This document shows, in pieces, positions 6,201-9,200 of a DNA stretch of 64,000 nt; within the stretch, counting starts at the first letter, position 1; each line of letters begins with the position of its first letter. A program made the position numbers and the translations under genes. The notes beneath the pieces are model-generated. The model made no database searches. It was not told the DNA's origin and was given only the letters and a program-made list of their open reading frames with translations. This DNA comes from Hoplostethus atlanticus. Its lineage: Eukaryota > Chordata > Actinopteri > Trachichthyiformes > Trachichthyidae. The DNA is taken from positions 62,001 to 126,000 of the forward strand of contig JAXDDX010000291.1 in the NCBI GenBank assembly GCA_034670405.1, in the 5' to 3' direction.

Positions 6201-9200
6201 GATCCTGTGAACTAAAGGGTTAGGGTTATCAAGTCAGGTTTATTTATATAGCCCATAATCACAAAACATCTCAACATCTCACAGGACTTAACAACACACA
6301 GTGCTAATGGCATAAACCTGGTTAGAAAGTGATTCATTCATGGAGTTACCTTTAGGTACTGTTAGAGCTGCGGTTACCTTTAGATACAGTTTAGATACAG
6401 TTAGCGATGCAGTTACTTTTAGATACGATGCAGTTACCTTTAGATACAGTTAGAGATGCAGTTACCTGTAGAAACAGTTAGCGATGCAGTTACCTTTAGA
6501 TACGATGCAGTTACCTTTAGATACGATGCAGTTACGATGCAGTTACCTTTAGATACAGTTAGCGATGCAGTTACCTTTAGATACTGTTAGCGCCGCAGTC
6601 ACCTTTAGATACTGTTAGCAATGCAGTTACCTTTAGATCACCTTTAGATACTGTTAGCGATGCAGTTACCTTTAGATACTGTTAGCGCCACAGTCACCTT
6701 TAGATACTGTTAACGATGCAGTTACCTTTAGATACTGTTAGCGCCGCTGTCACCTTTAGATACTGTTAGCGATGCAGTTACCTTTAGATACGGTTAGTGA
6801 TGCAGTTACCTTTAGATACGGTTAGCGCCGCAGTCACCTTTAGATACAGTTAGCGATGCAGTTACCTTTAGATACTGTTAGCGCCACAGTTACCTTTAGA
6901 TACTGTTAGTGCCGCTGTCACCTTTAGATACTGTTATCGATGCAGTTACCTTTAGATACTGTTAGCGCCACAGTTACCTTTAGATACTGTTAGCGCCGCT
7001 GTCACCTTTAGATACTGTTATCGATGCAGTTACCTTTAGATACTGTTAGCGCTGGAGACCACTGTGACCGTAGAATGTCCAAACAGATGCTCCCATTACT
7101 GTTTATGTTTGGGTGATAGATCTTTGTTGTAAATGCTACCTGTAAAAAAGAAAATCAAAATCACATTTTATTCAGATAGTACTCTGAGATGATGCACTGC
7201 ATTAGTTTCAGTGTTTCCCTTGCAATTATTTGTAGGAGCCATGTAGTAGCAGTAGACAGTCTGGGGGTCCATTTTGGTTTTAAATCCACATCTGTGCTAG
7301 TTTTGCTCCCAGATTTGGTTTTAGTCGAGGTCACAGCACTGCTGTTTTTATTTGGACAATTTTTGTTTCTTTGTAACATTTCTGTCTATCAGAGGTGGTA
7401 ATTTTCTTACTGTGCTAGCCTACCGCTGCTGAATGAATACAGGAGGAGAGTGTGTGCTTTTGCCTTGGTAATAAACCTTTGTTGTACACACTAAATAAAA
7501 GTAAATTCAATTAATAATGTTTCATCAGTCAGTCCGTGTCTATGTAAAAAAGGTGTCTTCAGGTCTCATCAGGACCATTTTAAAGAGAGTTTGAATAAGA
7601 TATACGACAAATCTCACAAATGACATAAATGTTCAAATGAAAACAACTGTATACCTAGTATCAGAATATAGGTCTGCATTACTGGCTGATGTCTCAACAG
7701 CATGCCAAGAAACCACAACATTTAAGACCTCTAAAAGTGAATTTAACACTTCAGTATGATTTAGACATTTTTAGACTTTTTCCGGACCTGAAGACACCCT
7801 GACTGTACCAGGATCATCATAAATTACACAGTATAACAAGACAAAAGCTTTGAGTAACCAAACCAACTTGCCTTTGGTGGCTTGAAGGGATAGTCAGTGG
7901 GGAAATGGATTGTGAGAAAGAAAACTCCTCCTTGGTAAGGGCTGTCATTCTGACGTGAAGAGACATGAGTTGTGTCATTAGAACATTTTACAATTCAAGC
8001 ATTTAGCTGACACTAATCAGAATGACTAGAGCACAGAAGTAGAATAAGTTTAAATTCCTAGGTCACCAACATTACCAGCAACCAACAAGGTCAAGGGTCA
8101 AAGCCAAGCCATTCTAACAATTGAGCCAACAAATATTCCTGTGTCCCTGGAACGAACATGTATAAGAGAGAAGTGTTAGGAAAAAAGAATAAGAGTCAGG
8201 GAGAAAAAGTAGAATTCTTTTTAAAAACAAGACAAAAAATATTTTCTACGGACAAGGCTTATGCTGGTTTCCGGGATCACCAGTATCAATACCATCATTT
8301 GTCATGATGAGATGTGCAGCCAATCACAAAGGTAACCTCGTCCTACATCATCAATGCCAAAATCTTATCAAAGGTTACTTTACAAGTACGCAGCCTGATA
8401 AATAGTAAACTTGGGCCAGGTTTCGTTTTTTTTACCGATAGAATGAGATGTTCTGTTGCACAGTCCAGCCTACAGTGCAATTTCTGCATAACGTCCCTAC
8501 CAGTATCCTACTTCACAAAGCAAGTTTCTTGTTCAGTGTTCACCGTTTCACTCCTTTTCAGCCTGGTCGTAATTTTGATTGCGGTCAACTGAGCAGCCTT
8601 TTGTCAACCCATGGTCTTGCCAGCCGCTCTATATTTTGTTGCTTGTCTACTGATGTAATTGCAAATTGATGGAGTGTGTTGAGTCAAAACAACATTATTT
8701 ATGCAGAATTGGATCAAAGATAGGGGAGATACACAGTGTCAATCAAAAACAGAGCCAGACTCAAGCTCAAACTGTTTACGGTTGCACTGCATTTGATAAC
8801 AACTGATGATTCATTGCATAAGAAGTTTGTCTGGTTGAAAAACACTGCAAAAATTAGCATGATTGGAAACTTTAAAGAGGTAGTTCAAAAATGCCAATGA
8901 TTTTTGCTTTAAAAAATTAAAAAATATATATATAAAAAAAGACTCCTTTTCACAAAGTGATTTCACTGCAGCATTTTGGAGAATTGTTTCTTTCACTTGG
9001 AAAAATCCAGCCGATTCCTTTGGTTTGCATTCTATTCCTTGCACACAAGACAATTTACTGTGCCACTTTAGGACGCTGCAAACTAAAAATCACTCAAAAG
9101 CTCATTTTAGAGAATTTCACCAATCAAGTCCCTACAAGGCTCGCAATTAGTTGGTAAAAAGTCAAATTTTTTACCTTTCATATGAAACTTCTTTTCAATA

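Follow-up and report, generated by a model that had tools for sequence, protein, structure and literature searches.

How does a spliceosome find one donor among 25 that are nearly identical, when only the first leads to protein? A locus of Hoplostethus atlanticus poses this question as a natural experiment. In the window, by which we mean the whole 64,000-nt stretch of contig JAXDDX010000291.1 that was analyzed, a minisatellite with a donor-like sequence in almost every unit begins at the end of exon 5 of a ube2d1-type E2 gene. Each wrong choice of donor would be tagged by a stop codon, and ordinary RNA-seq junctions would show the weight of position and exon context in isolation from donor sequence.

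The ube2d1-type gene

The minus strand carries an intact seven-exon E2 gene of the ube2d type, whose joined exons form an open frame of 147 codons and whose six introns all have GT-AG or GC-AG ends (Table 1). The predicted protein contains a UBC domain (Pfam UQ_con, PF00179, 1.7e-55). Its best PDB match, over the full length, is 2oxq_A, annotated as E2D 1 (318.2 bits, compared to 313.9 bits for E2 D3), a zebrafish protein; together with a Sleeping Beauty-type transposase fragment in the window, this match agrees with a fish source. By a count made by eye on the printed alignment, 14 of the 147 residues differ from 2oxq_A, 9 of them within the last 19. The catalytic segment ICLDIL is retained, and the end of exon 5 is both coding and conserved, with a segment of 10 residues identical in 2oxq_A.

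An identification as UBE2D4 was set aside since the PDB search ranks E2D 1 first, and the name ube2d1 was therefore kept; E2 D4 is named in none of the best 60 of 78 PDB matches, and on E2 D4 the ranking is silent. An inositol polyphosphate kinase fragment is present in the same window at 44607–44990, which fits the UBE2D1-IPMK neighbourhood seen in other vertebrates.

Table 1. Features of the ube2d1-type gene and of the exon 5 array (window coordinates; a slash marks the exon-intron junction).
Feature	Position	Strand	Basis or remark
Exon 1, coding part	16307–16330	minus	ATG at 16330; joined open frame
Exon 2	13965–14028	minus	joined open frame
Exon 3	13108–13139	minus	joined open frame
Exon 4	7872–7949	minus	GC-type donor AAAG/GCAAGT (7866–7874)
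Exon 5, 106 nt	7034–7139	minus	last 18–19 bases are array copy 1; joined frame and Pfam
Exon 6, 94 nt	5841–5934	minus	carries the frame on from exon 5
Exon 7, coding part	3203–3248	minus	terminates in TAA
Array, exon-side part	6642–7051	minus	15 donors at exact 28-bp spacing; two unit types, 84-bp higher-order repeat
Array, intron-side part	6340–6641	minus	spacing 11, 21, 28, 32, 60 bp; decayed or shifted copies amid near-perfect ones
Real donor TATCTAAAG/GTAACTGC (TCTAAAG/GTAACT)	7026–7042	minus	exon end 7034; +5 G missing
Decoy CAG/GTAACT	6460–6468	minus	exon end 6466; beats the real donor on both scores
Copy AAAA/GTAACT	6411–6419	minus	-1 G changed (6417); one of two copies without AG/GT
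Copy TCTAAAC/TGT	6383–6391	minus	GT lost (6389); one of two copies without AG/GT
Last copy	6344–6352	minus	exon end 6350; adjoins the unique remainder of intron 5
In-frame stop TAA	7008–7010	minus	first reached from any of the 24 decoys; frame reading

A minisatellite across the exon 5 donor

Tandem Repeats Finder reports the array, which has a 28-bp unit, at 6340–7051 of the minus strand (period 56, score 773), alongside periods of 28 bp and 84 bp that run from 6640 to 7051 or 7052. From these coordinates, it fills 694 of the 1099 bases of intron 5 (63%). The core motif identifies 27 copies, and AG/GT is kept in 25 of them, namely the real donor and 24 decoys. When as many as 2 mismatches are tolerated, TATCTAAAGGTRAC occurs 26 times in the window, always on the minus strand and inside the array, compared to 1.1 occurrences expected; none of 100 shuffles reached 26, and chance is thus excluded as the source of the array. 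At the same threshold the unit is absent from the rest of the 64-kb window. A 22-base array pattern had no exact match in viral_contigs, a collection not aimed at animals, so that this result has little weight.

A sequence-only reading of this DNA had placed an array of about 25 decoy donors at the exon 5 donor of ube2d1. The array is real, and its strand and the type of gene are confirmed by Tandem Repeats Finder, the motif count and the joined exons. That the true exon end is the first copy also holds, since exon 5 ends there and exon 6 continues the frame. The figure of about 25 is right for sites with AG/GT, but one of these is the real donor. The 28-bp unit length stands, but 18–19 of the bases are exonic and 9–10 intronic, not 20 and 8. 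The extent of 6340–7061 is correct at its start, but the last array base is 7051 or 7052 and the remainder to 7061 is exon only.

The two unit types of the exon-side part read GTAACT... and GTGAC.... The two 84-bp blocks adjoining exon 5 (blocks 1 and 2) show a single difference over 84 bases (83/84 identical), compared to 5–8 differences in the remaining pairs among blocks 1–4, and 16–18 between a fifth block, which contains an indel, and the others. Measured against blocks 1 and 2 only, blocks 3 and 4 show 6–8 differences and the fifth block 17–18. Five of the 15 exon-side units, exon 5's own included, are identical across all 28 donor-centred bases. Mismatches to the nearer unit type number 0–3 in the regular units (6 in the indel-cut unit at 6642) and 0–10 in the intron-side copies, where the high values are partly due to a shifted register. 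The most recent growth thus appears to adjoin exon 5, although similarity declines unevenly away from the exon: the intron-side copies at 6603, 6575 and 6547 have 0–1 mismatches, so that the polarity is not clean, which counts against the reading that we favour below. In our reading, the ancestral junction may have been pulled apart with the array now between its halves, copy 1 joining the coding frame and the copy at 6350 joining the intron.

Strength of the real donor and the decoys

Donors were scored with a vertebrate position matrix, and U1 pairing energies were computed alongside. The real exon 5 donor scores 8.4, compared to 12.6 for the consensus, because its +5 base is C and not G; it pairs with U1 at -6.5 kcal/mol, compared to -11.6 kcal/mol for the consensus. 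The gene's other five donors score 12.4, 6.7, 10.4, 5.8 (exon 4, GC type) and 12.5. The exon 5 donor is therefore middling, ranking fourth of six, with exons 2 and 4 below it and the GC donor of exon 4 lowest, and the earlier description of it as near-consensus is generous by this matrix.

The nine bases of the real donor are common to 16 of the 25 array sites, itself included (15 of 24 decoys). The decoy with its exon end at 6466 reaches 8.5 on the matrix and -8.0 kcal/mol with U1. The other eight AG/GT sites score 6.6–8.2, and seven of them pair with U1 at -6.6 or -6.7 kcal/mol, marginally better than the real donor; in all, eight decoys out-pair it (-6.6 to -8.0 kcal/mol). Donor-like sites scoring at least 6.6 number 25 in the array, compared to about 1.1 per 712 bases outside it. 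Elsewhere on the minus strand, the densest donor-like place has 8 such sites per 712 nt (50427–50930) and contains a CTCTCC-rich, strand-asymmetric tract (50459–50717).

Predicted consequence of decoy use

All 24 decoys lead to an identical protein end, as TAA is reached eight codons beyond the true exon end; the predicted product has 109 residues instead of 147 and lacks the C-terminal part. The 28-bp unit breaks the frame, and extensions of 84n bases preserve it yet reach the same TAA. With exon 6 present, every decoy stop is more than 50 nt ahead of the last exon junction, at 96–752 nt upstream of the junction between exons 6 and 7. Since a stop more than 50–55 nt before the last exon junction marks an mRNA for nonsense-mediated decay (NMD), NMD is to be expected for all of the decoy mRNAs. 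The sequence-only reading was exact on the TAA after eight codons, in 24 of 24 decoys, and its proposal that decoy use should truncate the protein or trigger NMD is supported for each of them by frame and stop distance. The frame and the stop are computed directly; use of the decoys in RNA, and decay of the products, is what we infer from them. Full-length E2 is predicted from the first copy only.

Searches for structure, coding and constraint

The array shows no notable fold of its own (z -0.09, with 8 of 20 shuffles folding equally well or better), and no inverted repeat of at least 12 bases was found in 6200–7100. When the array was examined for coding potential on both strands, the longest stop-free stretch was 48 codons. 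Neither TTTT nor GCATG occurs in the array, and among the few motifs counted no regulator site was identified.

Purifying selection on the donor core was considered and not accepted. The longest invariant run spans 12 columns, with P 0.058 under random placement of the 8 variable columns; the test used 14 of the 27 copies (the 15 regular units minus the indel-disturbed 6642) and ignored shared descent. Among 12 other copies, four have core substitutions (6466, 6417, 6389 and 6350), and at 6631 the edge is altered by an indel. The 12 columns around the donor that do not vary could be due to chance, and a P of 0.058 is also compatible with weak constraint.

Comparison with known systems

The minisatellite of human IFI6 has a 12-nt unit that is in frame, and its array starts near an exon end. 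It was described as providing multiple splice donors in the title of a 1995 paper, and excerpts of a later source state that two downstream units serve as donors and that three mRNA species give different isoforms (PMC4526556). The fish array similarly starts where a coding exon ends (7034) and runs into the intron (6340–7051), with a donor-like sequence per unit (25 of 27 copies keep AG/GT, and all 25 score at least 6.6). In contrast to IFI6, the fish unit is 28 bp long and breaks the frame, giving a stop for 24 of 24 decoys; the downstream units of IFI6 are used, whereas those of the fish array are putative donors. The anatomy is thus alike and the reading-frame consequence is opposite. Among the cases known or found, only the IFI6 minisatellite shares this seeding on a splice donor, and a search of open-licence PMC literature returned this precedent and no title on a fish ube2d1 array. 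The kind is already known from human IFI6; the fish array differs in its frame-breaking unit and in its occurrence in a conserved E2 gene.

Exon 18 of Hps1 offers a likeness of consequence: in excerpts of the report, the upstream donor is productive and the downstream donor leads to an NMD-type stop, with two donors and the regulator Ptbp1 (PMC4222953). The fish array differs in having 25 near-identical donors, none known as a regulator's target. Alternative 5' splice sites coupled to NMD have a stop sufficiently far from the last junction, as do 24 of 24 fish decoys (96–752 nt). By analogy with Hps1, the fish array would work like an array of poison donors if the decoys were used. The 38-bp VNTR in intron 6 of TERT is likewise an intronic minisatellite, and its copy number affects splicing according to the abstract of PMC3948165, which attributes the effect to RNA:RNA pairing at a distance of over 1 kb from the junctions; the fish array, in contrast, is at the junction and lacks a notable fold. 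Duplication across an exon-intron boundary also recalls intron gain by tandem duplication, in which the copied segment brings a functional acceptor and creates a further intron. The fish array is contained in an intron that was already there, its AG sites have few pyrimidines (8–11 of 16), and no new intron is evident from the sequence.

Origin of the array and alternative explanations

We consider it probable that the minisatellite was seeded on the exon 5 donor, and that the first copy is normally used while occasional downstream use is lost to decay. A short junction-spanning segment (18–19 exon and 9–10 intron bases) would have undergone tandem duplication, after which the copies expanded again, initially in units of 28 bp and more recently in blocks of 84 bp that adjoin exon 5. 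The units, the young exon-side block and the two array edges are present in the sequence itself; slippage or unequal exchange would be the mechanism, and the order of events is deduced from the pattern of divergence. Most transcripts would use the first copy, as expected because this copy ends a normal 106-nt exon with its own acceptor. Later copies would also bind U1 and be spliced to some extent, yielding mRNAs that stop after eight extra codons and would be removed by NMD. In this best-supported reading, repeat growth left the array as a by-product that is tolerated, perhaps at a slight cost, and that is not a dedicated switch.

The nine bases of the real donor speak against first-copy use, as they are not distinctive (15 of 24 decoys are identical, and one is higher on the matrix). 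Since the array donors are near-identical over these nine bases, the bases cannot mark the right copy; position and exon context must do so. The intron-proximal donor can be favoured, as when several U1 particles bind. This bias would be opposite to first-copy use and constitutes a serious rival. Surplus U1 is reportedly purged from alternative splice sites as complex E proceeds to complex A, according to the title of Hodson 2012, a paper cited in PMC8724738. Excerpts of other studies indicate that the intron-proximal donor is preferred under SRSF1 and the intron-distal one under hnRNP A1 (PMC5585400), and that about 60% of one test pre-mRNA, described as two-intron, bore two U1 particles (PMC8724738).

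Several alternatives to this by-product origin were weighed. The decoys could act as a copy-number rheostat, as the sequence-only reading proposed for an E2 that it called essential, array length setting the fraction of transcripts that NMD removes, and thus the E2 level, with individual variation altering expression. The identical NMD-type stop from all 24 decoys and their strength near or equal to that of the real donor agree with this proposal, as do two published analogues: downstream donor use in Hps1 exon 18, which gives an NMD-sensitive mRNA (excerpts of PMC4222953), and intron 6 of human TERT, in which a non-functional isoform requires the 38-bp repeat in nine copies or more (abstract of PMC3948165). 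However, Hps1 has pyrimidine-rich elements between its donors, whereas the fish array is devoid of TTTT and GCATG; constraint is not significant, and the young exon-side block suits ordinary repeat growth. We regard the rheostat as rather unlikely, and as unlikely its hypervariable form, in which differing copy number would send differing shares of ube2d1 mRNA into NMD and so adjust the amount of an E2 that acts broadly. If later donors mostly won instead, the gene would be a hypomorph that yields full-length protein only in small amounts, and the load would fall on the other ube2d paralogues, of which vertebrates have several. This is quite unlikely: donors identical to the real one and one stronger decoy lie downstream, and the protein differs from 2oxq_A most densely near its C terminus (9 of 14 differences by eye), but the frame is open, ICLDIL and the terminal dinucleotides of all six introns are retained, and the last donors imply exons of up to 790 nt, which exceeds the usual size for exon definition.

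That the units help to define exon 5 by binding a protein, for example a STAR-family (QKI-like) factor, or by holding U1, appears very unlikely. TAAY, CTAAC and ACTAAC are motifs of STAR-family sites, and raw counts give 42 TAAY half-sites and 19 CTAAC in the 712 bases of the array; the exon 5 donor lacks the +5 G, and a consensus donor added 3' on a test pre-mRNA raised its splicing in excerpts of PMC8724738. These motifs are, however, an automatic product of the unit sequence, the full ACTAAC occurs only twice, and the exon 5 donor is not the gene's weakest, exons 2 and 4 being lower. The possibility that the array is absent in reality, or of another length, as an assembly artefact is highly improbable. 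Tandem arrays are a usual site of such errors, but graded divergence, two unit types, indels and distinct edges are unlike a simple assembly loop; the copy number may still be in error. Least credible, and barely so, is recursive splicing through zero-length exons, in which AG/GT would serve as acceptor and then as donor, any wrong choice being healed as the junction is rebuilt each time. Removal between any two of the 25 AG/GT sites does restore a donor, and CTAAC, with its 19 occurrences, is also branch-like. However, only 8–11 of 16 bases (mean 9.0) upstream of the 25 sites are pyrimidines, compared to 12–15 of 16 at five real acceptors of the gene and 9 at the sixth, that of exon 2, so that AG/GT sites are unlikely to act as acceptors; a single removal of 28 nt is also below the usual minimum intron.

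Other features of the window

Further repeats are present within and around the gene. A second minisatellite region at 98–471 has periods such as 22, 44 and 53 bp and more diverged units of the GTTGCTAGG type. Intron 1 of the ube2d gene contains two separate arrays of a 43-bp unit starting with AGATATCT (14904–15017 and 15080–15184), and intron 6 contains on the minus strand what by eye resembles a decayed Tc1-like transposon (4200–5000). A 141-bp tandem duplication at 35722–35981 (1.8 copies, 93% matches) lies inside a plus-strand stop-free stretch that by eye resembles part of a retrotransposon protein. Domain searches identified the HTH domain of a Sleeping Beauty-type transposase at 42065–42445 (PF25787, 2.6e-22), part of a reverse transcriptase at 21205–21906 of the minus strand (PF00078, 3.7e-9) and, also on the minus strand, an open stretch of alpha-N-acetylglucosaminidase (NAGLU) at 62505–63719 (PF12972, 2.5e-86; PF05089, 6.4e-49).
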